Source: Turneriella parva
Lineage (GTDB): Bacteria; Spirochaetota; Leptospiria; Turneriellales; Turneriellaceae
Direction: 5' to 3'
Length of the DNA: 42,133 nucleotides
Assembly (NCBI GenBank): GCA_020719945.1
Contig: DYPL01000018.1
Span: 1 to 42,133 of the forward strand
Within the stretch, counting starts at the first letter, position 1. The number at the start of each line of letters is the position of its first letter. Positions 1 through 42,105 of the stretch are shown here, piece after piece. The notes below the pieces were generated by a model that ran no database searches, was not told the DNA's origin, and was given only the letters and a program-made list of their open reading frames with translations. A program made the translations under genes and the position numbers.

Positions 1-2516
1 TATCCGCACCAGCTGATGTATCCGCCGGGGGAAGTTTTTCGGAACCCGCTTTTCCAGAACCGCTCTCTCTTGACGACGTAAACCCGGACGTAGTACTTAA
101 AGGGGCAGCGCCTTCCATACAGGATGAATTTGCTGAACTGCACAAAGAATATGCCGGGGGATCGGGCTCTATTTTCTCCGATGCTGAAATACAGACATTC
201 CGCACAAATGCTAAGCGGTATTCTCTCCCCTTCCGAAAGGCTCTGGTAGATCTGTTGCTGCGTCCGGATATAATGCCGGGCATCCGCGAAGAAATTATGC
301 GGCGCGTAATTTCCGGTTCGGGGGAGCTGGCACTTTCTGAATACATTGAATCCGAAACGGGCGAAAAAATTTCGCGTGAATTAAAAGGTGGTCCTTCCAA
401 AGTAATCGTCACACGGCCAGAGTATACCGACAGCGGCTTGGCTAGACAGCAGAAAATACTTAAACTGATTCGCCTGGGTTCCATCGCTGCGCTTGCCGTT
501 ATTATCATTTCTGCGGCAGCCTGGCTTGGAGTCATAAAGCCCATGCGCTATAATAATTTTATCGAGTCTGGCAGAAACCTGATTCTGCATGCAACTCCGG
601 ATTCCAAACAGAAACCAGAGGAACTTTTTGAAAAGGCAGTTCGCTTGTACCCCCATAAGCCCGACGCCTTTTTGCGCTTTGCCGATGCCTATCGCAAAAA
701 GGGAATGTACCGCGAGGCTTTTGTAAAACTGTACGGAGATATTGGGCTCCTTTCTTCCCCACTGCGCTTTCAATCGCGAGAGTTTACCTCTGCTGACGAA
801 ATCTGGAACAGTTTTGAAAAAGTTCCCGTCGCTGCCTATGGCCCTAAAAATAATATTCTCCTGCTCAATGGCACAGCCTTTTCGCTCAAGAGCAAAGGGG
901 CGTATCTCATCACGCATCTTGACAAAAAGAAAAACGACGGCAGGGTTCTCATGGCTCTCGCTGCTTTTCATTCCAACCATTCGCGACGGTTTCACGATTC
1001 GCCCTACCGCAATAACAGGCTGGGAATAGATTATTACCAGAGAATTTTAAATTTTAAGACGGAATTTCCGTTTGGAAAAAAAGCCCGCTATCTCAATGAC
1101 TCGGTTATGGGAATCGGAGAAATTTATTTCAATCAAAATAATTATACTAAAGCCCTCGAATATTATGAGCGGGTCGTCTTGGCCAATCCAAGAAATCCGG
1201 GAGGCCAGAGCGGTATTCTGCGCTCTCTGATTCGCATTTCAAAAACAAATAACGATCCCAAGCTGGTAATCCAGACACACAGCGTTATCAAGCACACGCT
1301 GGACATGGAAAATTCTCTCCCCATGCATGTAATGGCAGAACTCGCTGCTTTTTATATCGATCTTCCCGACGAAAACACTTTGAGGATAAAATATAATTTG
1401 TCTCCGGAAGACAAGGTTAACTCGACGCAGTTGCGCAGACGGGCTCTGGAACTGCTCACGAAAATCCGGGAGAAAAAAGAAACGGACGCCTTTGGAAATG
1501 TTAAAAACGGTAAAACATATGCAGAGGCGTATTACCAGCTTGGGCGCTATTACCGCCATGTGGAAAAAAATCACATCATGGCACTTAAACAATTTGAATA
1601 CGCCTTTACCTACGACAAACGACATTTCATGGCGCTCAACGACAGAGCAGAACTGCTCCTTGAAATTAACGATTACCAGGGAGCGGCGGAACATCTGAAA
1701 CTCGCTGCTCCATTAATTTCAGCAGAGGCATTGTCTGTTCTCGGAGACTCTCCCGAAGATGAAAGTCTGCTCCGGGCAAACAGAGCCAAGATACCTTTTA
1801 ACGCGGGCAAAGCCATTTTTCTCAATGCGGTGGATTCTTTGGGGCCAACGGACGACTGGATTCGCATGCTCGAAACGAGCCGGTATTCTACTCCGGAGCA
1901 AAGCGGCGAACTTGCCTTCTTGGCAGCTCTCGATCAGGCAGAGGCGCACTGGGCAGCAGCCGATGCCATGGGCACTACCGACGAATCTCTCAAGGCAGAG
2001 ATGAATTACAGCCGTGGCTGGGCGGCCTACGCGCGCGGCGACTATCGGCAGGCCCTGCAGTTTCTGGAATCCATGCCCATGGAAATGCAGCAGAAAAACC
2101 CGCACATTGAGCTCGCGCGCTCAAACAGCTGGTACCGCATGGCTCTGTCGGATCCTGCCAACCGGGAAAAATATCTCGAGAACGCGCTTGGCATACTAGG
2201 ATATTTGGAAAGTTATTATGCAGAAAAGGCGGCAGCACTTTCTGATAAATCTCTGGGCAAACCGGAAAACATGCGCCTGATTTCGCAGCTTGCCATTGTC
2301 CACAATAATGAAGGAGCCATGCTGGAACTTCTTGGCGACGAAGCCGAATCTCTCGCTCATTACTGGAAGGCTGTTGATTTTACCAATCGAATCAATCGGG
2401 AAAATGAAATTTCTCTCGTGAATATGAAGTTGCATTTTAAGCGCGAGAATCTGGACGAAAAAGAGCGCTACCCTCTCATCATGGATTTTTTTCCGCCTCT
2501 GTTAGCCGATTCTTGA
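1..2516 (+). CDS. TPR-containing membrane protein, 5' end outside window
   Basis: The reading frame is open from base 3 to the TGA at 2514-2516, so the gene enters from the left and its true start is not visible. About 837 residues can be read. The first ~155 visible residues are polar and probably cytoplasmic. One transmembrane helix follows at bases ~477-536 (LIRLGSIAALAVIIISAAAW), and the remaining ~660 residues would lie on the other side of the membrane. That part carries several TPR-like helical pairs, for example FEKAVRLYPHKPDAFLRFAD, YTKALEYYERVVLANPRNPG and MALKQFEYAFTYDKRHFMAL. TPR arrays bind protein partners and no catalytic motif is visible. A role as a scaffold for an envelope complex is inference; the specific function is unknown. 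Confidence 0.85.
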   Translation, partial: SAPADVSAGGSFSEPAFPEPLSLDDVNPDVVLKGAAPSIQDEFAELHKEYAGGSGSIFSDAEIQTFRTNAKRYSLPFRKALVDLLLRPDIMPGIREEIMRRVISGSGELALSEYIESETGEKISRELKGGPSKVIVTRPEYTDSGLARQQKILKLIRLGSIAALAVIIISAAAWLGVIKPMRYNNFIESGRNLILHATPDSKQKPEELFEKAVRLYPHKPDAFLRFADAYRKKGMYREAFVKLYGDIGLLSSPLRFQSREFTSADEIWNSFEKVPVAAYGPKNNILLLNGTAFSLKSKGAYLITHLDKKKNDGRVLMALAAFHSNHSRRFHDSPYRNNRLGIDYYQRILNFKTEFPFGKKARYLNDSVMGIGEIYFNQNNYTKALEYYERVVLANPRNPGGQSGILRSLIRISKTNNDPKLVIQTHSVIKHTLDMENSLPMHVMAELAAFYIDLPDENTLRIKYNLSPEDKVNSTQLRRRALELLTKIREKKETDAFGNVKNGKTYAEAYYQLGRYYRHVEKNHIMALKQFEYAFTYDKRHFMALNDRAELLLEINDYQGAAEHLKLAAPLISAEALSVLGDSPEDESLLRANRAKIPFNAGKAIFLNAVDSLGPTDDWIRMLETSRYSTPEQSGELAFLAALDQAEAHWAAADAMGTTDESLKAEMNYSRGWAAYARGDYRQALQFLESMPMEMQQKNPHIELARSNSWYRMALSDPANREKYLENALGILGYLESYYAEKAAALSDKSLGKPENMRLISQLAIVHNNEGAMLELLGDEAESLAHYWKAVDFTNRINRENEISLVNMKLHFKRENLDEKERYPLIMDFFPPLLADS

Positions 2517-2703
2517 TGTTGGGATATCCAACTTGTTCACTTTCGCTGGAATTCTAAGGGGACCGAAGGAATGCCGAAAAGGAACTTATTCCGATGCTCA
2601 GGAAGCCCAATCGGCAGGAACAAAATGTCCTTCAACATACTCTGATCAAACAAACCGCTTATTATACAACCTCGTAAGCGGTACCGAATTTAATACGTAT
2701 ATT

Positions 2704-2726
2704 TTAGGTACCCTCTGAAAAAGTCC
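2704..2726 (-). repeat. Dispersed repeat copy R1, left arm of a 23-bp inverted pair
   Basis: Read on the minus strand this segment matches 3673-3695 at 21 of 23 positions; the only differences are the two bases after TTAGGTA (CC here, AA there). The pair therefore faces inward and brackets the Lrp/AsnC gene and the small gene after it. The core CTCTGAAAAAGT recurs near 14456 and, shortened by one A, at 34112. Confidence 0.75.
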
Positions 2727-2819
2727 TTCCGGGGACAAAATATTTTTTCTCTGACAAAAAATCCCTGCGCGGGTAGCGCATTTTGGTTGACAGACTGGGA
2801 ACAGGCGACAGAAAGCAGC

Positions 2820-3323
2820 ATGCTGAAACCACTCTCCGGTGACGAACTTAAAATACTCGATGCCCTGTCGAACAATGCTCTGCTCACCAATACAGAACTG
2901 TCTGCAAATACGGGAATCCCCGAACAGGACGTAGAAAAATTGCGGCTGCATCTGGAATCAGAAGGAATTATCCTTAAATACAAAGCAATAGTAAACTGGG
3001 AAAAAATAGAAAGTCCGGAAGTGATTGCTCTCATCCAGGTTAAAGTTACTCCCAAGCGGGGACAGGGGTATGACGAAGTTGCCCGCAGAGTAGCCTCTTT
3101 TCCCGAAGTGGTATCGTGCATGCTCGTTTCAGGATCGTTTGATCTCCTCGTAGAGGTGCAGGGCCCTTCCCTCAAAGATGTCGCTTTTTTTGTGGCCGAT
3201 AAGTTATCCCCCATTGAAGGTGTGGAGCACACGAGCACAAACTTCCTTTTAAAGAAATACAAACAGGGCGGGGATCTGTTTGCTACCGGCGCTAAAACGC
3301 ATCGGCTTCCCGTCGTCGTATAA
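2820..3323 (+). CDS. Lrp/AsnC-family transcriptional regulator
   Basis: The 167-residue product has the two-part layout of the Lrp/AsnC (feast/famine) family. An N-terminal helix-turn-helix spans about residues 6-50 (LSGDELKILDALSNNALLTN, then IPEQDVEKLRLHLESEGII). A ferredoxin-fold ligand/oligomerisation domain follows at about 66-145 (VIALIQVKVTP, VVSCMLVSGSFDLLVEVQG, VEHTSTNFLLKKYK). Family members form dimers or octamers and control amino-acid metabolism in response to small ligands; the targets here cannot be read from sequence. I chose the ATG at 2820 because the domain begins right after it; an in-frame TTG at 2787 would add 11 residues. The gene lies between inverted repeats R1 and R2, with the small gene at 3364 following after 40 bp. 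Confidence 0.85.
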   Translation: MLKPLSGDELKILDALSNNALLTNTELSANTGIPEQDVEKLRLHLESEGIILKYKAIVNWEKIESPEVIALIQVKVTPKRGQGYDEVARRVASFPEVVSCMLVSGSFDLLVEVQGPSLKDVAFFVADKLSPIEGVEHTSTNFLLKKYKQGGDLFATGAKTHRLPVVV

Positions 3324-3363
3324 AATCTGTTGTGCGGATGGTACCAGATTCCGATAAAAAAGC

Positions 3364-3699
3364 ATGGCCGGCAAAGAAATGGATCCCAAGAAGAAGGCAG
3401 AATTAGTGAGAATGGGCAACCAGCTATATAACAGTGGCGACATTGAAACGGCGGCCCAGGTTTACAAAGCCACCGGATACCGCGACGGGCTCATCCGCGT
3501 GGGTGATTATTTTTACTTTGAAAAGCACCAGCCGCTGCGCGCGTACGGCTATTACCGCCAGGCCAACCATGAAAAAATGCTCAACCGAATTTCCTCTGGC
3601 TTTGTGTTCGCCCTGAAAATGTGGCTCTGGGAAACTCCCGAAGAAAAAGCCGCAGGCAAAAAGTCTAAGGAGGGACTTTTTCAGAGTTTACCTAAGTAG
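3364..3699 (+). CDS. Small helical protein of unknown function
   Basis: This 111-residue protein starts MAGKEMDPKKKAELVRMGNQ and continues with TPR-like helical pairs (LYNSGDIETAAQVYKATGY, then FYFEKHQPLRAYGYYRQAN). It has no signal peptide or transmembrane segment. It follows the Lrp-type gene by 40 bp and may be co-transcribed with it. The last residues (KEGLFQSLPK and the TAG stop) are encoded inside repeat copy R2, so insertion of the repeat may have reset the C-terminus. A second in-frame ATG at 3379 (MDPKKK) is an equally plausible start. The style resembles small conserved proteins of Leptospira, but I do not recognise a named family. Confidence 0.7.
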   Translation: MAGKEMDPKKKAELVRMGNQLYNSGDIETAAQVYKATGYRDGLIRVGDYFYFEKHQPLRAYGYYRQANHEKMLNRISSGFVFALKMWLWETPEEKAAGKKSKEGLFQSLPK

Positions 3700-3718
3700 C
3701 CTCTGAACGCGAAGCGTG
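3673..3718 (+). repeat. Dispersed repeat copy R2, right arm of inverted pair, with hairpin
   Basis: Bases 3673-3695 are the inverted partner of R1. The segment continues as TAAGTAGCCTCTGAACGCG plus AAGCG, which matches the start of copy R3 (14403-14426). TTCAGAG at 3680-3686 and CTCTGAA at 3701-3707 are exact reverse complements around a 14-nt loop, so a hairpin can form on either strand. It contains the stop codon of the 3364 gene and lies in the gap before the convergent thrC. Confidence 0.75.
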
Positions 3719-3746
3719 CACTCTTCGGGTACAGCCCGCAAGACCG

Positions 3747-5087
3747 TTATCCTCGTAGAACGCTGTCGATGCGCTCGTCTACTGCGCGACGCACGGCATC
3801 GATGCTCGCCTCCAGCAGAACCGGCTTATTGGGCATGGCAGACATTACTTCCTTAAGCTTTCCCTCGTGGTAGTGAACTTTAAAATCCGTGAATTTTAAC
3901 CCGTTGGCGGTAGAAATTACAACGGCGGATTCTTCTGGCGAAATCACTTTCTTCGCAATCAGCTTTTCAAGAGCGGCAAGAGCCACGCCCGTATGCGGAT
4001 CCGAAAACAGTCCAGCAAGATCAGACTTTGCGGCTGCATTGGATAACTCGGTTTCGCTTGCCTGCTCCACCACTCCATTAAATGTTTTGAGAGTGCGAAT
4101 GGCTTTCTGCACAGACACCGGATTGCCAATGCGAATGGCCGAAGCCTGTGTTTCCTGCGCTGTCACAGAAGAGAACTCTTCAAAGTTTTTAAGAAAGGAC
4201 AAATAGAGAGGATTTGCTTTTTCGGTTTGTGCTACGGCAATGCGCGGCAGTTTGTCTATCAGGCCGAGTTCTTTGTACAGCAGCAGGCCGTTTCCGAGGG
4301 CCGATACATTGCCAAGATTTCCGCCCGGAATAATGAACCAGTCTGGCACATTGTAGCCAAGCTGCTCCACAACCTCCATGCCAACGGTTTTTTGGCCTTC
4401 TATGCGCAGCGAGTTCATGGAATTGGCGAGATATATTTCTTTCTCCTGCGTGAGTTCCTGCACGAGTTTCATTGCTCCGTCAAAATCTGTATCGAGAGCA
4501 AGCACCAGTGATCCATTGGCCACGGGTTGAATCAACTGTGCCAGCGACACTTTATTGTGCGGCAGCAAAATGACAGAAGGGATATCGGCAGCGGCAGCAT
4601 AGGCAGCCAGTGCGGCGGATGTATCTCCGGTGGAGGCGGCGGCAACAGCGCGGATGGGCACGCCTTCTTTGCGCATCTGGTTTACCTGCGAGACGAGAAC
4701 CGTCATTCCGAGATCTTTAAACGATCCGGTATGGGAATTGCCGCACAGTTTCACGTGCAGTTCGCGTATGCCAAAAAGCTTATTCAGTTTTTCTGAATGA
4801 AAAAGCTGCGTGTAGCCTTCTCCCAGAGTGACTATGTTCTCCGGTTTTAGATGTGGCATCACCATTTCGCGCTTAGCCCAAATGCCAGAATTGTCTGGTG
4901 CTGTCACCGAGCGGTAACGGGAGGCGAATGTCTGTTTCCATTCTGTGGCTGATATCTTTTTGAGTTCGTTCAGATCGTGCCGCACTTCGAGGAGTGCTCC
5001 ACATTTTGGACAGGTATAGATAACTTCGTTTAGAGAATAGGAAGGTTCGCATCCATTGATGCACTGGAAATGCGCGTTAGGTTTCAT
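3747..5087 (-). CDS. thrC: Threonine synthase
   Basis: The product converts O-phosphohomoserine to threonine using pyridoxal phosphate, the last step of threonine synthesis in the cytoplasm. The 446 residues match the fold-type II threonine synthases. An N-terminal zinc-ribbon-like segment has C9, C13, C26 and C29 (CINGC, CPKC). The PLP lysine lies in HTGSFKDLGM (K124). AAASTGDTSAALAAYAA is the phosphate-binding loop region, and IPGGNLGNVSALGNG follows further on. Length is normal for the long bacterial form with the zinc ribbon. The gene stands alone, transcribed toward the R2 repeat, with the ferredoxin locus divergent upstream. Cysteate synthase is a related alternative but less likely. 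Confidence 0.93.
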   Translation of the reverse strand: MKPNAHFQCINGCEPSYSLNEVIYTCPKCGALLEVRHDLNELKKISATEWKQTFASRYRSVTAPDNSGIWAKREMVMPHLKPENIVTLGEGYTQLFHSEKLNKLFGIRELHVKLCGNSHTGSFKDLGMTVLVSQVNQMRKEGVPIRAVAAASTGDTSAALAAYAAAADIPSVILLPHNKVSLAQLIQPVANGSLVLALDTDFDGAMKLVQELTQEKEIYLANSMNSLRIEGQKTVGMEVVEQLGYNVPDWFIIPGGNLGNVSALGNGLLLYKELGLIDKLPRIAVAQTEKANPLYLSFLKNFEEFSSVTAQETQASAIRIGNPVSVQKAIRTLKTFNGVVEQASETELSNAAAKSDLAGLFSDPHTGVALAALEKLIAKKVISPEESAVVISTANGLKFTDFKVHYHEGKLKEVMSAMPNKPVLLEASIDAVRRAVDERIDSVLRG

Positions 5088-5221
5088 GCGGTTATTCTTG
5101 AAATCCAGGTTGAACGGACAAGCCTATAGTTGAAAGCCTTTATCACCTGAATGCAAAATAATCCCTCGCAAAAACTGCGGCGACTGCGTTTGCCTTGCAC
5201 GACACGGCACAACCAGAAGAG

Positions 5222-5401
5222 ATGGCTGCAGCCGACTTTGTTGAAGAGAAGCTCCTTGCACAAGGTGAATCAGAATCCAGTGAATACTATTTCAACGACG
5301 TAGAATTTAACGACAACTGGGAAACCGATCCCGCCGATTTTCAGAGCAACGATGGAGAGTACGATGGAGACGGTGGTTGCGGCGATGGAGATGGAGACTA
5401 A
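5222..5401 (+). CDS. Small acidic protein upstream of ferredoxin
   Basis: This encodes 59 residues from ATG 5222, or 68 from an in-frame TTG at 5195. It is very rich in Asp, Glu and Gly, and ends in a low-complexity tail (DGEYDGDGGCGDGDGD). No fold or family is recognised. It runs in the same direction as the ferredoxin gene, whose ATG lies 76 bp past this stop, so the two may share a transcript. The repetitive GATGGAGA stretch at the 3' end is open in a second frame that leads without a stop into the ferredoxin, so a frameshift or a different gene boundary is possible. Coding is plausible but unproven. Confidence 0.45.
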   Translation: MAAADFVEEKLLAQGESESSEYYFNDVEFNDNWETDPADFQSNDGEYDGDGGCGDGDGD

Positions 5402-5477
5402 AGGCAAAGTCCCTATTATTACTGTACAGGGAAAACCACTCAAGCAGATTGACCCTTATAAATATAAGGAGTTTAAC

Positions 5478-5693
5478 ATGAGCAAAGTAGTAACAGTAAA
5501 CAAAGACGATTGCACAAGCTGCGGCCTGTGCACAGACACCCTCCCGAAAGTCTTCCGCCTTGACGCAGATGATCTCGCAGAATCACACAACGACGATGCC
5601 AACGTGAACAAAGCCGTTGTAGATGGTGCAGACATTGACAAAGTCCAAGAAACCATAGACGATTGTCCGGGCGAGTGCATCCACTGGGTGTAA
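5478..5693 (+). CDS. 4Fe-4S ferredoxin
   Basis: A 71-residue soluble electron carrier. CTSCGLCTDTLP supplies three cluster cysteines in CxxCxxC spacing, and DDCPGECIHWV at the end supplies the fourth, as in single-cluster bacterial ferredoxins of the D. gigas/Thermotoga type. The remainder is highly acidic, as usual for this family. The start is set by an AAGGAG at 5466-5471, six bases before the ATG. The same frame stays open upstream through ATGs at 5385 and 5352, which would add a 31- or 42-residue extension; the ribosome site argues against that. A strong terminator follows directly. It could be the partner of the FNR encoded at 26154, but nothing here links the two. Confidence 0.92.
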   Translation: MSKVVTVNKDDCTSCGLCTDTLPKVFRLDADDLAESHNDDANVNKAVVDGADIDKVQETIDDCPGECIHWV

Positions 5694-5699
5694 GTTTTT

Positions 5700-5728
5700 A
5701 GCAGGGGTTTGATCCCCTGCTTTTTTTT
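5700..5728 (+). terminator. Rho-independent terminator after ferredoxin
   Basis: AGCAGGGG and CCCCTGCT form an 8-bp perfect stem around TTTGAT, followed by an unbroken run of T. It begins seven bases after the ferredoxin stop codon. Confidence 0.92.
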
Positions 5729-5906
5729 GCACGAGGTTAGCCCTATGCAGTTTTCCCTGAACTTTCGAAGGGTTGAAGGGGGCGGCAATACCAGAAGACC
5801 CTGCGGGTCGCTCTCACTTAAACGGGCAACCGTTCTCATAGATTTCCGCGAAAAATCATTTATTTGTCTCTAATCAAAGAGGCAGATTCTCTTCCAAAAT
5901 ATACAC

Positions 5907-7124
5907 TCAGCGAATCATTTCTGTCAATTTGTAAATCGGAAGAATCACGGCAGACATAATTCCAGCAATAAGCCCCCCCATCACGACGAGCATGAGAGGC
6001 TCTAAAGCAGCGGTAAAACGCTTCACGGCAGAATCTACTTCAGAATCCATTATGGCGGCAACCTTCAACAGCAGTTCGGCAAGACGGTCAGAAGACTCCC
6101 CCGCCGCAATCATCCCCAGAGTCATTTGGTCGAGCACGCGGGAATTCCGCAGAGATGTTCGAATTTTTCCACCTTCGCGTATTTCTTTGGCTGCCATTTT
6201 CAGCTCTTCGCGGAATACGGCATTGCCAACAGTTCCAGCAAGAATCTCAAGAGTCTGCAACAGCGGAACATGCGATTCCTGCAACAAGCCAAAATTGCGT
6301 GCAAATCGAGATATTTCAATTTTGCGTAAAAGATCCCCAATTAATGGCGTTTTAATCATGCGAGCGTCTGTCTTGAGCCTTCCCTGCGGAGTCGCATAAT
6401 AGCGCGAAAATGCATACAAGCCACCGGCAGACGCAAGCAGAGCAATATGCCAGAAAGACTGCATGAACGAAGAAATGGCAAGCACCAGGCGCGTTGGCCA
6501 GGGCAGATTTCCTTCAAAACTCGAAAACAGCATTTCCATTTGCGGCACCACCGAAGTCAAAAGAAAAATTACGACAAAGACAGACAAAACGAGCATAATG
6601 GCGGGATAAATCAAAGCTGTAATGGCCTTACCCTTCAGCTCGTCATTTTTTTCTTCCATCTCGGCCAGGCGCAGCAATATGGCTTCGTAGGAACCGGTTG
6701 CCTCCCCTACCCTCACCATGTTCTCGTACACCGGTGGAAAAATAACCGGATGCATGCCAAAAGACTGCGAAAGAGTTTTTCCTTCGGTCACCGCCTGTTT
6801 CATCTCCAGAATCACTTTGCGGAATGTCGGATTTTTGGTCTGCTCCAGAACAGAAGACAGGGATTCATCAAGAGAAATTCCAGCTCCTAACAATGTCGCA
6901 AGCTGCCTGCTGAAAATGCCTATTTCCTTGCGGGATATCGTATTGAGCAATTTGGATAAAACAGGAAACAAATCGCGGTCGCGCCTGGCCGTGTCTGTTT
7001 GAACAATTTTGGGATAAAGATTCTGGCTTTTCAGCTTGGCAATGGCGGCCTCGCGGTTAGGAGCTTCTAAGACCCCCTTTACCGCATCGCCCCGCTGGTT
7101 CATGGCATCGTACTGAAAAATCAT
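5907..7124 (-). CDS. gspF: Type II secretion inner-membrane platform protein GspF
   Basis: This 405-residue polytopic membrane protein forms the inner-membrane platform that couples the GspE ATPase to pseudopilus assembly. It starts MIFQYDAMNQRGDAVKGVLE, the usual GspF/PilC opening. Two T2SSF helical domains follow (IGIFSRQLATLLGAGISLDE near residue 68 and ISRFARNFGLLQESHVPLLQ near 271). Hydrophobic segments occur near residues 165-190, 220-240 and 375-400. The start codon shares one base with the gspE stop, so the two are translationally coupled. A PilC of a type IV pilus is the main alternative; the adjacent GspD-type secretin favours type II secretion. It is the last gene of the cluster, with no pseudopilin gene after it. 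Confidence 0.9.
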   Translation of the reverse strand: MIFQYDAMNQRGDAVKGVLEAPNREAAIAKLKSQNLYPKIVQTDTARRDRDLFPVLSKLLNTISRKEIGIFSRQLATLLGAGISLDESLSSVLEQTKNPTFRKVILEMKQAVTEGKTLSQSFGMHPVIFPPVYENMVRVGEATGSYEAILLRLAEMEEKNDELKGKAITALIYPAIMLVLSVFVVIFLLTSVVPQMEMLFSSFEGNLPWPTRLVLAISSFMQSFWHIALLASAGGLYAFSRYYATPQGRLKTDARMIKTPLIGDLLRKIEISRFARNFGLLQESHVPLLQTLEILAGTVGNAVFREELKMAAKEIREGGKIRTSLRNSRVLDQMTLGMIAAGESSDRLAELLLKVAAIMDSEVDSAVKRFTAALEPLMLVVMGGLIAGIMSAVILPIYKLTEMIR

Positions 7125-8806
7125 CAGGTAATCCGCAGAGCTTCTTCTAACGAGGTTTCGCCCGCGAGCACTTTTTCAAGCGCTGCTTCGCGAAGCGTCT
7201 GCATCCCCCTTTTTACGGCTTCCTCGCGGAGTTCATCAATCGATGGATTCTTTAATATAATCTCACGCATTTCTGGGCCCGTCACCATCAGCTCATATAC
7301 CCCGATTCTGCCGCGATACCCCGTATTCATACATTTGTCGCATCCGGTTGGTTCATAGATCTGAATTTTCTTTTTGGGCAAAGCAGCACGATAACCTGCC
7401 GCTTTTAAATCCTCCGGAGACAAACCAACAGGTCTTTTGCAATCGCAGAGTTTGCGCACTAGGCGCTGCGCCATAATGCCACGAGCCGTAGAAGTAATCA
7501 GATACGGCTCTATGCCCATGTCCAGTAGACGCGTCAGCGCAGAGGGTGCATCGTTCGTGTGCAACGTAGAAAAAACGAGGTGTCCGGTAAGGGAAGCCTG
7601 TATGGCAACGCGCGCGGTTTCTTCGTCGCGGATTTCCCCTACCATAATCACATCTGGATCCTGGCGCAGAATGGATCGCAGACCCTCTGCAAACGTCAGG
7701 CCAATTTTATGGCGAGCCTGCACCTGGCTAATCCCGGCAATCTGGTATTCAATAGGGTCTTCTACAGTGATAATATTGCGGGTGTTGTCATTCAAGGAAT
7801 TCAGAGCCGCATACAAAGTCGTCGTTTTTCCGGAACCCGTTGGACCGGTAATCAGAATAATTCCATTGGGCAAGGCGAGTAGTTTCTTAAGTTCTGTTAA
7901 GACATAATCTGGAAAGCCAATTTTTTCAATTTCGTAAGATACATCGGTGCGCCCTAAAAGACGCATTACAATGCGCTCTCCAAAAGCGGTAGGCAAAGAA
8001 GAAACGCGAATATCGAGCTCCCGCCCCGCAAAACGAATTTTGATTCTGCCATCCTGAGGCAAACGGTTTTCAGCAATATTCATTCCGGCCATAATTTTAA
8101 TACGGGAAAGAATACCGCTCTGCACAGATTTAGGGGGAGACAAAACTTTGTACATCATTCCGTCTATGCGATAGCGAACGGTGATTTCTTTTTCCTGCGG
8201 CTCAATGTGAATATCAGACGCTCTCTCCGAAACGGCATTGGACAATATCACATTGACGAGTTTAATAATGGGGGCCTGGTTGGCCAGATCAGAAGATTCA
8301 TCAAGATCTTCAATGTCCGCGAGCAGTTCAAAATCGCTCTCGCCGGAAATTTCATTCTCTCCCCTTTTGCGGCTGTCTTCATCAAAGTGATTGTGCAGTG
8401 CACGCAGAATTTCTGATTCCCTGGACAGCCCCACGCTGATCTCGAAAGCCGAAAGCATAATGCGGGCCTCGTCAATAGCGTGCAGGGTAGAAGGGTCCGA
8501 GACGGCAAGGTACACATGCCCGGATTCAAAGCGATAGGGAACCAGACGATATTTCTGTAAAAAGCGAAGCGGAATAAGTCCGCGAATTTCGTCTATGCCG
8601 GCAATCTCGAGTTTATCGAGATAGGGCATCCCATAAATTTCTGCGAGAACGCGGAACAAATCTTCTTCTGTAATGGAGCCCTTTTTAAGAAGAAATTGTC
8701 CTGCTTTGAGCAGAGATCCCGATTGCTTTTTGAGCAACTTCACGTCTTCCGGGGAGACGAGATTTTTCTGCTCTAACACAAAAACAAACTGCTCAAGAAG
8801 CGTCAT
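7124..8806 (-). CDS. gspE: Type II secretion ATPase GspE
   Basis: This cytoplasmic AAA-type ATPase, 560 residues, powers pseudopilus extension. The N-terminal GspE/PilB N1-type domain is at about residues 1-145. The catalytic domain shows Walker A GPTGSGKT (321-328), the Asp box ITVEDPIEY (~346), Walker B DPDVIMVGEIRDEET (~383-397) and the His box FSTLHTNDA (~412). A C-terminal zinc module has C454, C456, C489 and C492. The ATGA overlap with gspD and the one-base overlap with gspF indicate one operon. Sequence alone leaves PilB-like ATPases close; the secretin partner decides for GspE. Confidence 0.93.
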   Translation of the reverse strand: MTLLEQFVFVLEQKNLVSPEDVKLLKKQSGSLLKAGQFLLKKGSITEEDLFRVLAEIYGMPYLDKLEIAGIDEIRGLIPLRFLQKYRLVPYRFESGHVYLAVSDPSTLHAIDEARIMLSAFEISVGLSRESEILRALHNHFDEDSRKRGENEISGESDFELLADIEDLDESSDLANQAPIIKLVNVILSNAVSERASDIHIEPQEKEITVRYRIDGMMYKVLSPPKSVQSGILSRIKIMAGMNIAENRLPQDGRIKIRFAGRELDIRVSSLPTAFGERIVMRLLGRTDVSYEIEKIGFPDYVLTELKKLLALPNGIILITGPTGSGKTTTLYAALNSLNDNTRNIITVEDPIEYQIAGISQVQARHKIGLTFAEGLRSILRQDPDVIMVGEIRDEETARVAIQASLTGHLVFSTLHTNDAPSALTRLLDMGIEPYLITSTARGIMAQRLVRKLCDCKRPVGLSPEDLKAAGYRAALPKKKIQIYEPTGCDKCMNTGYRGRIGVYELMVTGPEMREIILKNPSIDELREEAVKRGMQTLREAALEKVLAGETSLEEALRIT

Positions 8807-10888: not shown

Positions 10889-11209
10889 TCACGGGGCGGG
10901 TGTCAAGATTTTCCTTGTCCATTACGGTTGGCGCTTGCGCGCAGCATTTTTTCGCCGACAGGAGGTACTATACCGCCAAAGGGGCAGCCATTCTATTGAA
11001 AGATCCTAACGCTATGAAATTCTTGCTCTTATTATAACCAGCGAAATATTTTCATCGCTGGCTATTCTCTGTTCTCAAAGCAGCGAAGCAAAAGTTGCTC
11101 CTTAGCTTACTCCTGGTTTAACCTTAAAAAAGCATTTTTTTAAAAATTATCCAAGAAAATTCTAAAAAAATTAAAAAATCTCTATTTCAAACACATTATA
11201 TCTATTAAG
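10889..11209. other. Divergent intergenic region with AT-rich leader
   Basis: About 320 bp separate the divergent yqeY and the 11210 gene. No convincing ORF is present. The part next to yqeY is GC-moderate. The last ~100 bp before 11210 are strongly AT-rich with runs of A and T, typical of a promoter/leader of the plus-strand gene. Hairpin repeat H1 sits in the middle at 11023-11064. No confident -35/-10 pair stands out. Confidence 0.5.
11023..11064 (+). repeat. Hairpin repeat H1
   Basis: CCAGCGA (11038-11044) and TCGCTGG (11055-11061) form a perfect 7-bp stem around a 10-nt AT-rich loop, preceded by TTGCTCTTATTATAA. Almost the same prefix and stem recur at 22072-22109 before aconitase. There is no T-run, so this is not a standard terminator. 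Confidence 0.6.
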
Positions 11210-11803
11210 ATGCAAAAGATAGATCAAAACGAACACCACCGTACCTCCGTAACAATTACGCCAAAATGTAAGAGACGCATCAAGGCAGCCCTCTTGATCC
11301 TTAAGCGCAACGGAGTTATCTGGTCCGAATCCGATCTCCTGCGTCAACTGGCCATGCTCTACCTGCAATCCTGGCGAGGCAACAAACTCAAGTCGGCCAC
11401 CGCAAGGCGCTACAACAATACAATTAAAGGCTGGAGATATGTTCGAGTTTCCTGGTACATAGACAAGGTGCTGTACTCCATTCTCTGGGAAAGGGGAGTG
11501 CATTCCGGCATGTCTGTTTCGAGGATGCTCGAATTTGCGCTGCAGTATTATATGCCGAGGCTTATGGAGGTCATTTTGCGCAATCCGATACGGGGCAATG
11601 CAGCCTCGCAGCGGAATGCTCCTTACTGGCAGAAGCGCTATGAGCAGCGTGCCAGACCAAAACCCAAAATCGTTGTTATCTACGCAGCGAAAACACAGAT
11701 GAACTCTATAATACGGCTTAAATCTCGACAATACTACAGAATTTTGCCTTTCGGTTATCTTTTGGAAGGAAAAATCCCCCCGGGTTGGGCCATTTTATTC
11801 TGA
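11210..11803 (+). CDS. Basic protein of unknown function, possible DNA-binding
   Basis: The 197-residue product is strongly basic, with no signal peptide or membrane helix. The N-terminal part (TSVTITPKCKRRIKAALLIL, then SESDLLRQLAMLYLQSW) resembles a ribbon-helix-helix arrangement: a short strand followed by two helices. A second similar unit may follow (RYVRVSWYIDKVLYSILWER, then SGMSVSRMLEFALQYYMPRL). This recalls small Leptospira-lineage proteins of the DUF1564 kind, but that is recollection and needs a profile search. The C-terminal 40 residues (IIRLKSRQYYRILPFGYLLE) look less ordered. The gene stands alone behind an AT-rich leader and points toward argH, which is convergent. A regulatory role is inference. 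Confidence 0.6.
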   Translation: MQKIDQNEHHRTSVTITPKCKRRIKAALLILKRNGVIWSESDLLRQLAMLYLQSWRGNKLKSATARRYNNTIKGWRYVRVSWYIDKVLYSILWERGVHSGMSVSRMLEFALQYYMPRLMEVILRNPIRGNAASQRNAPYWQKRYEQRARPKPKIVVIYAAKTQMNSIIRLKSRQYYRILPFGYLLEGKIPPGWAILF

Positions 11804-14358: not shown

Positions 14359-14402
14359 CGATAGAAGCACGTGGCTTTGCAAACGTGCTGTCAATTCTCT
14401 TT

Positions 14403-14487
14403 AAGTAACCTCTGAACGCGAAGCGGCGGAGCGACGCGAAGCGAGCCGTAGGCAAACTTTTTCAGACCTTACTTAGGTAGCCTCTGT
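14403..14487. repeat. Dispersed repeat copy R3, compound
   Basis: Two modules occur in one tract. TAAGTAACCTCTGAACGCG plus AAGCG (14403-14426) matches the right half of R2. AAACTTTTTCAGACCTTAC plus TTAGGTAGCCTCTG (14455-14487) matches R2 from its start. Between them lies a GC-rich stretch with GACGCGAAGCG-type units and GCCGTAGGC. The tract sits in the divergent gap between murI and ttcA. Confidence 0.7.
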
Positions 14488-17059: not shown

Positions 17060-20000
17060 GTTTTACCTCCGCCATCTTTTTAGACGGGTCCTCTTTTTCG
17101 GCCTGTTCAAGTTGCTTCAATTTTTCCAGAGCCGCTCTGTATTCGCGCGGCATCACCTTCACAAAGTTTGACTTTTCTTCTTCCCAGTTGCTCAAAATAA
17201 AATTGGCGCGGTTAGAGGATGTATACTCATAATGCGAACTAATCAGAGAATGCAATTCTTCCAGATCCGCTGAATCATTCAGTTCTTCCAGATCGACCAT
17301 GTCTGCATTGACAAGCTTCTCAAACTTTTTATGGGGATTCCACACAAAAGCAATCCCGCCAGACATACCGGCTGCAAAGTTGCGACCCGTTTCACCAAGA
17401 ACGACGACGACCCCGCCAGTCATGTATTCGCAACCATGGTCGCCAACGCCTTCAATAACGGTTTTTGCCCCGGAATTGCGCACGGCAAAACGTTCGCCGG
17501 CCATCCCGTTTATATACATCTCGCCAGAAGTGGCTCCGTACAAACAGGTATTTCCGATTATGATATTCTTTGCGGGATCAAACGAACTCTCGGCAGGAGC
17601 CCGCACAATCAGGAGACCACCCGAAAGCCCCTTGCCGGTATAGTCATTCGACATTCCCGTAAGCCGCATCTCTACGCCACCCGCCAGGAATACGCCAAAA
17701 CTTTGCCCGGCAATTCCCGTAAGTTCAATGCGAATGGTTTTGCCAGGAAGACCTTTGGCCCCGTGGCGTTTAGAAATTTCGCCGGAAAGCATGGCTCCCA
17801 CAGAACGATCCGTATTGTGAACGGGTAACGAAATGGTTACTTCCTTTCCGGATTCCAAAGCCTGTTTTGACAATTCAATCAGCTTGTGATCTAACTGTGT
17901 TTCCAGTCCATGCTCCTGTTCTTTTTTGCGATGCAAAGCCGTGCCAAATTTTGGTTCGGCCTGGTGGGTAAGCGGAGCCAAATCAATACCGCGCAGTTTC
18001 CAATGAGTTAGGCGCGGCTTTTGCTGTAGGCGATGCGTTTGACCCACCATATCGGTAAATTTGCGGTAGCCAAGTTGCGCCATGTATTCGCGCACTTCCT
18101 CTGCAACAAAGAACATAAAATTGACGACATTGTCTGGAGTACCGGAAAACTTTGCGCGCAGTTCCGGATCCTGCGTAGCCACGCCAACCGGACAAGTATT
18201 GAGATGGCACTTGCGCATCATGATACAGCCAAGAGTGACGAGCGGAGCGGTAGAAAAGCCAAATTCTTCGGCACCAAGAAGAGCACCCACGACTACGTCG
18301 CGACCTGTCTTGAGCTGGCCATCAACGGCGAGATACACGCGATCGCGAAGACCATTGAGAACCAGAGTCTGCTGGGTTTCGGAAAGTCCCAGTTCCCACG
18401 GAGTTCCCGCATACTGTATAGAACTGATGGGAGAAGCTCCCGTTCCACCATCATGGCCAGAAATCAAAATATGATCAGCATGGGCTTTGGCAACGCCGGC
18501 GGCAACTGTCCCTACCCCAGTCTCCGATACCAGCTTAACGCTGATGCGCGCCGTCGGGTTAATATTTTTGAGATCAAAAATCAGTTGTTTAAGATCCTCA
18601 ATGGAATAAATATCGTGGTGAGGAGGAGGAGAAATCAGCGTAACGCCCGGAGTAGAATGCCGAACTTTCGCAATAATCGTGTCCACCTTGAATCCGGGCA
18701 GCTGTCCACCCTCGCCCGGTTTAGCGCCCTGGGCCATTTTAATCTGAATTTCGTCGGCATTGACGAGATAGTGAGCCGTAACACCAAAGCGGCCAGAGGC
18801 AACCTGTTTAATGGCAGAGCGCATCGAGTCACCATTGGGCTGCGGCACAAAGCGATCCGGCTCTTCGCCACCCTCTCCCGTATTCGACTGCCCGCCAAGC
18901 CGGTTCATGGCAACCGCGAGAGAAGTATGGGCCTCACGGGAAATAGAGCCATAGCTCATGGCTCCCGTGGCAAAGCGCTTCACGATTTCTTTAGCGGGTT
19001 CCACCTCGTCTATGGAAACGGCAGGCAGATCCGAAGTAAATTCAAAGAGGGAGCGCAGGGTCACTGGCCCGTCTGCCTGCTCGTTGATCAATTTTGCATA
19101 TTCTTTGTATTCATCGTAATTATTAACGCGAACCGAGTTCTGCAGTTTGGCAATAGTAAGCGGCGTCCAGAGATGCTTTTCGCCGTCCATTCGAAAATGG
19201 TGCAGACCACCCGAGGCAAGTCTGTTTCTGGAAATTTCTTCAAACGCGGCAGCATGGCGGCGGCGCGTTTCTTCTTCTATCATTTCCAGCGACATGCCTT
19301 CTATCACGGTGGGCGTACCGGCAAAGAAGCGATTGACGACTTCGCGATCCAGACCCACTACTTCAAAAATCTGTGCTCCGCAATACGACTGAAGCGTAGA
19401 AATTCCCATTTTAGAGAATATCTTGAAGAGCCCCTTGCCAATTGCCTTGCGGTAATTGTATTCAATTTTTTCCACAGAATCTGGTCCTTTGAGAAGGCCT
19501 TCCCGGAACATGTCGTGGAGAGTTTCGTAAGCCAGATACGGGTTGATGGCATTGGCCCCATAGCCGAGCAGTGAGGCAAAGTGGTGCACGTCGCGCGGCT
19601 CGCCACTTTCGAGAATAATACCTGTCTGGGTGCGCATGCCTTGGCGGATCAGATGGTGGTGCAGTCCGGCAACCGCCAGCAAAGAAGGAATGGGTGCCTG
19701 GTGTTCATCGGCACCGCGATCCGTAAGAATGAGAAGATTCACGCCACTGCGCACGGCATTCTCGGCGGCTAAAAACAAAGCGTCCAGTTTTACGCGCATG
19801 TCATTTTTTTCGCGCGGATCAAAATGCATGGACAACGTAGTCGCCTTAAAATGGCCTTCTGCAATGGAGCGAATCTGCTCTAACTCCCGGTTGGATAACA
19901 CGGGATGAGGAAGCTCTAAACGGTGCGCATGAGCTGGCGTCTCTCCGAGAACGTTTTGTTCTGGGCCAACATACGTAGTGAGCTCCATGACAATTTCTTC

Positions 20001-42032: not shown

Positions 42033-42105
42033 TAGCCAGAGAGGGAATCGAACCCCCGACACAAGGATTTTCAGTCCTTTGCTCTACCGACTGAGCTATC
42101 TGGCC
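42033..42105 (-). tRNA. tRNA-Phe (GAA)
   Basis: On the minus strand this is a complete 73-nt cloverleaf. It has a 7-bp acceptor stem, a D arm (GCTC...GAGC), an anticodon stem AAGGA/TCCTT with loop CTGAAAA giving anticodon GAA, and a T arm with TTCGATT. CCA is not encoded. The first acceptor pair is G1-U72. Confidence 0.95.

Follow-up and report, generated by a model that had tools for sequence, protein, structure and literature searches.

The lrp locus and its inverted repeat

The locus considered here holds lrp, a gene for an Lrp/AsnC-type transcriptional regulator, followed by a gene for a small protein and by the convergent thrC, with a TPR gene upstream of lrp, and the pair of lrp and the small gene lies between the two arms of an inverted repeat (Table 1). 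In the following, the window is the whole stretch of 42,133 bases that was analysed; it belongs to a genome denoted by G000, and the comparisons below are made mainly with G001, a genome of the same genus, and G003, a genome of the same family. All three bear the repeat described below and are fragmented assemblies, of 146, 430 and about 170 contigs, respectively. The small protein has no match in Pfam or NCBIfam, and of the known RNA families the window contains only a tRNA, at 42033-42105.

Table 1. Features at and near the lrp locus, in positions of the window.
Feature	Positions	Strand	Remarks
Left arm	2704..2736	+	Left end, truncated, of a MITE-like repeat of a dispersed family, body inward; starts with TTAG (2704-2707)
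Leader and first codons of lrp, with a second copy beside prfB	2778..2839	+	95% over 62 nt to C13:33290-33351 (L056, about 8291-8352)
lrp, Lrp/AsnC-type transcriptional regulator	2787..3323	+	PF01037, E 7e-19; HTH_24 (PF13412); 94% identical to G001
Small protein	3364..3699	+	Last residues supplied by the repeat; relatives in G001, G004, G006, G013
Right arm	3647..3695	-	Left end, truncated, of the same MITE-like repeat, body inward; ends with CTAA (3692-3695); overlaps the end of the small gene
Second repeat fragment, start	3692..3716	+	Abuts the right arm, CTAA common to both
Full short repeat copy, outside the bracket	14401..14476	+	74 nt match the copy on C135 at 97%; both ends found

The sequence-only reading had pointed to a 23-bp near-perfect inverted repeat, and this is borne out: bases 2704-2726 and the reverse complement of 3673-3695 are identical at 21 of 23 positions, with the inverted match extending to 24 of 27 (2704-2730 and 3669-3695). 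Within a spacing of 2 kb this is the sole inverted repeat of at least 21/23 in the window, and none of 60 first-order Markov simulations of the window gave one of that quality within 2 kb. The repeat had also been described as exactly enclosing two genes. The gene pair is indeed enclosed; the exactness does not hold, for the right arm sits inside the small gene.

A dispersed repeat family

Both arms carry the same end motif, CTCTGAAAAAGTCC, in exact form at 2713-2726 in the left arm and at 3673-3686 in the right arm. A search of 41 genomes found exact matches to this motif 16 times in G000, 74 times in G001 and 34 times in G003; in 37 of the 41 it is absent, and the reversed control gave 0-1 match per genome. 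The single match in a further genome, G039, was counted as chance, the surrounding sequence being unrelated. When at most one mismatch to the 14-base motif is allowed, G000 has 39 matches versus 2 for the reversed control. Similarly, the stretch 2600-3800 used as a query against G000 gave 34 matches, mostly short copies of the arm sequences. Compared with the left end of the copy on contig C135, the left arm matches over 33 nt at 91% and the other arm over 38 nt at 87%, both arms being truncated; the right arm is also 86-93% identical to copies on C37, C133, C71, C97 and others.

The aligned copies have common inverted ends, of the form TTAAGTAA-C-CTCTGAAAAAGT, together with several inner modules. 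In the scanned loci they occur in several length forms, with end-to-end lengths of 37-301 bp; this range excludes two pairs of ends lying 1600 and 1770 bp apart, as well as the pairs that abut with 4 bp in common. There are 7 such abutting pairs, the pair at the right arm included, and the composite there (3647-3709) is present whole on contig C231 of G001 at 92%. The pairs of ends 1600 and 1770 bp apart, both in G003, were considered as parent elements and set aside, as their ORFs, judged by reading alone, look like ordinary genes. In the three genomes the copies are thus short, non-coding, numerous and dispersed, and they have terminal inverted repeats, with 44- and 118-bp cores having inverted ends in G003. 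By these sequence comparisons the family is MITE-like and is present in at least two genera of this spirochaete family.

Bacterial MITEs, as reviewed in PMC10969869, are likewise short, without coding capacity and of several lengths, with inverted ends, a short target duplication and many dispersed copies. The present family differs in that it matched no described family in the searches made, and its mobilising element was not found. A limited search found no MITE literature for Turneriella or for Leptospira, and a G003-type copy had no match in the plasmid records searched, nor the 18-base end pattern in the viral contigs searched. Within that limited search the family looks undescribed, and with so little literature covered it may be new for this spirochaete branch; the kind of element itself is ordinary.

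Evidence for mobility

For G003, stretches covering all 34 exact matches were studied. Both ends are present in 18 of these; in another 9 a contig end interrupts the copy, and the other 7 lack a recognisable right end within 145 bp. Identical 4-mers flank 11 of these 18 complete copies, a number that none of 10,000 permutations reached (mean 4.8, maximum 10). Ten of the 11 are TTAG or TTAA and one is TTTA. Among the 7 non-matching copies, one (L230) had been paired to an internal end and another (L219) is flanked by TCAG on either side if the boundary is shifted. The identical 4-bp flanks thus point to transposition. With a cruder automatic test, duplications were seen in 2 of 16 cases for G000 and in 0 of 10 for G001, low counts that arise in part because internal ends were paired, so that the 4-bp duplication is established for G003 only.

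Two repeat loci, C132 and C58, were compared between G000 and G001. At C132, where G000 has a repeat between two TTAA, G001 has a single TTAA, so that the site looks unoccupied there, although a run of Ns is nearby. At C58 the site is occupied in both genomes by different forms, a short one in G000 and a longer one in G001, and thus insertion is indistinguishable there from a change in place. The short form (L273, G000:C58, about 11190-11250) is 60 bp long, and the same intergenic site in G001 (C147, about 18640-18870) holds about 230 bp; at such a site long forms may be shortened in place to give the short ones.

The four-base target (TTAR/YTAR) suggests, by analogy, that an IS5-group transposase is the mover. 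The target of IS5 is reported as YTAR in PMC10359306, and 4-bp duplications of this kind, mostly TTAG or TTAA, are what is found in G003. The family differs from IS5-group insertion sequences in that some of its targets (TTTA, TCAG) depart from YTAR, and in that no IS5-type transposase with these ends was found. The PF01609, PF01797 and PF05598 families together have 0 matches in G000, 2 in G001 and 1 in G003, none with matching repeat ends nearby, and so the search of these three fragmented assemblies gave no transposase with matching ends. A transposase, probably of the DDE type, acting in trans on a 4-bp target near YTAR would move the non-autonomous repeat. If a parent insertion sequence exists, GTAACCTCTGAAAAAGT would be its ends, lying on both sides of the transposase gene. 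The copies would then decay, truncate, abut one another and join in rearrangements.

The same genes without the repeat

In G001 the order is lrp, small gene and convergent thrC, as in the window, with identities of 94%, 94% and 95%, respectively, and neither arm is present at its lrp locus. G006 and G004 likewise have the three genes close together, and G013 has lrp close to the small gene; an exact end motif is absent from G006, G004 and G013 alike. In all, 15 genomes have this Lrp, and the small protein was found in 5 of them within the stretch of the locus examined. Since the gene pair occurs in relatives without the repeats, it predates the repeats at this locus. Two observations had been named by the sequence-only reading as telling against a bracketed unit: a related genome with the same gene pair but no repeats, and repeats at many unrelated positions. 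Both were made, the former in G001, the sole same-genus genome compared, and the latter in dozens of unrelated places.

These results bear directly on the proposal of a mobile or invertible cassette. As a mobile cassette, the outward-facing repeat ends would delimit a single unit by which lrp and the small gene were brought to their present site. Blocks of genes flanked by MITEs are known, namely the MITE-flanked integrons of Acinetobacter (described in PMC10969869), and the present arrangement resembles them in having genes between two MITE-like copies, which moreover are of the same end type and in opposite orientation with bodies inward; lrp has also truly lost an old neighbour, prfB, with a remnant left behind (see below). 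However, the copies here are truncated, and one side retains the ancestral gene order: thrC, which is outside the unit, still adjoins the small gene as in G001, meaning that there is a break on one side only. The duplicated piece of lrp begins about 40 bp inward of the left arm. The two outermost 4-mers, TTAG and CTAA, do not match as a direct duplication, and presence or absence of the unit as a whole does not distinguish the genomes, because G001 has the genes beside thrC without the arms. We therefore regard a mobile cassette as highly improbable.

In the invertible form, recombination between the inverted arms would flip lrp and the small gene. It is true that near-perfect inverted arms surround a regulator, but the orientation of the two genes relative to thrC is the same in G001, G006 and G004, genomes without the arms or without the motif, and the arm sequence is that of a repeat with many copies. 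Near the bracket, the ORFs of 1-8000, four of whose proteins were scanned for families, showed no recognisable recombinase gene. A switch of this kind is extremely improbable. Both forms of the proposal are thus ruled against by the G001 gene order and the TTAG/CTAA mismatch, and they were rejected.

The right arm and a probable new tail of the small protein

The stop codon of the small gene, TAG at 3697-3699, lies just past the right arm, so that the final residues of the small protein are encoded by the repeat. Its C-terminus is EEKAAREKSAPDKG in G001 versus EEKAAGKKSKEGLFQSLPK in the window, and at the joint of gene and repeat AAGCCGCA is common to both. The right copy would have arrived at the 3' end of the small gene and would have been truncated at the joint where AAGCCGCA is common to the gene, the small protein thereby probably gaining its new tail. 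The Rickettsia palindromic elements (RPE) are similar in that a palindromic repeat is now within protein-coding sequence; by contrast with their internal in-frame insertion, the repeat here replaces the C-terminus at the end of a gene, and in a single case.

It is noted that in 4 of 30 loci of G000 with the end motif (L019, L023, L032 and the small gene of the window) an ORF of at least 100 aa has its stop within 13 bases of the motif, and that CTCTGA of the repeat can supply a TGA stop. The repeats may often supply gene ends.

The position of the right arm between two convergent genes also bears on the suggestion that the arms are transcript boundary hairpins, i.e., terminators kept for the transcript of lrp and the small gene and for its neighbours. 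The right arm folds, as AAAAAGUC...GACUUUUU, beside a second hairpin (z about -2 on both strands). The folding of the left arm, however, is at the level of shuffled sequence (z 0.58 and -0.01), and G001, in which the same two gene ends adjoin, has neither arm there. In the stretch 2400-3900 there are 4 terminator-like matches versus a shuffled mean of 1.8 (sd 1.5), of which one (2723-2736) overlaps the left arm and none is in the right arm. The right arm can form an A/U-rich hairpin and may serve as a transcript boundary, but this is not what the repeat is. Terminators as the identity of the arms are very unlikely.

The left arm and a rearrangement joint

In G001, lrp adjoins prfB. In G000, prfB is on contig C13, where it is followed by a copy of the lrp leader and first codons and then by nadC; the TPR gene that lies upstream of lrp in the window is followed in G001 by priA (prfB, nadC and priA as named by NCBIfam). 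With prfB elsewhere beside a remnant of lrp, and with the TPR gene having a changed neighbour, it follows that a rearrangement separated lrp from prfB. In the window, the joint falls somewhere from about 2516 to 2778, the stretch that contains the left arm. The left copy would have been caught at this rearrangement or would have helped to cause it, the repeat being in the latter case a putative cause of the break, and about 60 bp of lrp would have stayed beside prfB. The remnant at the prfB/nadC joint of C13, of about that length, has no copy of the repeat there. The left joint may alternatively be a misassembly; yet the two copies of the start of lrp differ, which means that a plain assembly overlap is not the explanation.

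Note also that CCCTGCGCGGGTAGCGCA, at 2756-2780 upstream of lrp, recurs upstream of another gene (G000:C88:13905-13934, 90%) and is a second short repeat.

Origin of the bracketing

Based on the above results, we propose that the arms are two independent truncated copies, both left ends, of a non-autonomous MITE-like mobile repeat spread by a transposase in trans, and that the bracketing has no function of its own. We put the probability of this reading at about 0.87. Since the close relative G001 keeps these genes in this order but has no repeats there, the bracketing is in all likelihood coincidental. The idea of two chance insertions of one repeat, which had been offered beside the others, is therefore the one supported, by the dispersed family together with the G001 gene order. 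With 39 ends in the 2.42 Mb of G000, chance alone would give 0.61 pairs of ends no more than 1 kb apart, and one other close pair of ends is found in that genome, on C97, about 0.9 kb apart with the bodies outward. The order of events at the two arms, as we infer it, would be the one described in the two preceding sections.

A stronger reading is that the family actively reshapes these genomes, its copies lying at rearrangement joints and being recruited as gene ends, with lrp and the small gene caught in becoming a repeat-bounded unit movable in trans. We consider this unlikely, and keep to the reading of two independent copies without function in the bracketing.

Accounting for the conspicuous inverted repeat as a chance arrangement of copies from a dispersed family avoids a false regulator cassette. 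In genome scans generally, the copies of a repeat that flanks genes in inverted form should be counted across the whole genome before the repeat is taken for a boundary. The locus moreover retains two datable marks, namely a gene tail that comes from a repeat and, at a rearrangement joint, what was left of the gene that moved.

Other observations

The TPR protein (255-2516) shows similarity to FlcA, the periplasmic flagellar collar protein of spirochaetes (NF047371, E 1e-16), at 60.6 bits, which is far below the cut-off of 300. Contig C389 of G001 (DYKF01000115.1) is titled 'Caldithrix sp.'; its kinship is with the genus of G000, several next-best Lrp matches are labelled Spirochaetia, and the title looks wrong. 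Beyond this bacterial group, the next-nearest relatives of the Lrp among the public genome contigs searched are mostly archaeal, from Methanosarcinales and Archaeoglobi, at 39-49% identity (L111-L183), and such a pattern of sequence relatives may reflect an old transfer.
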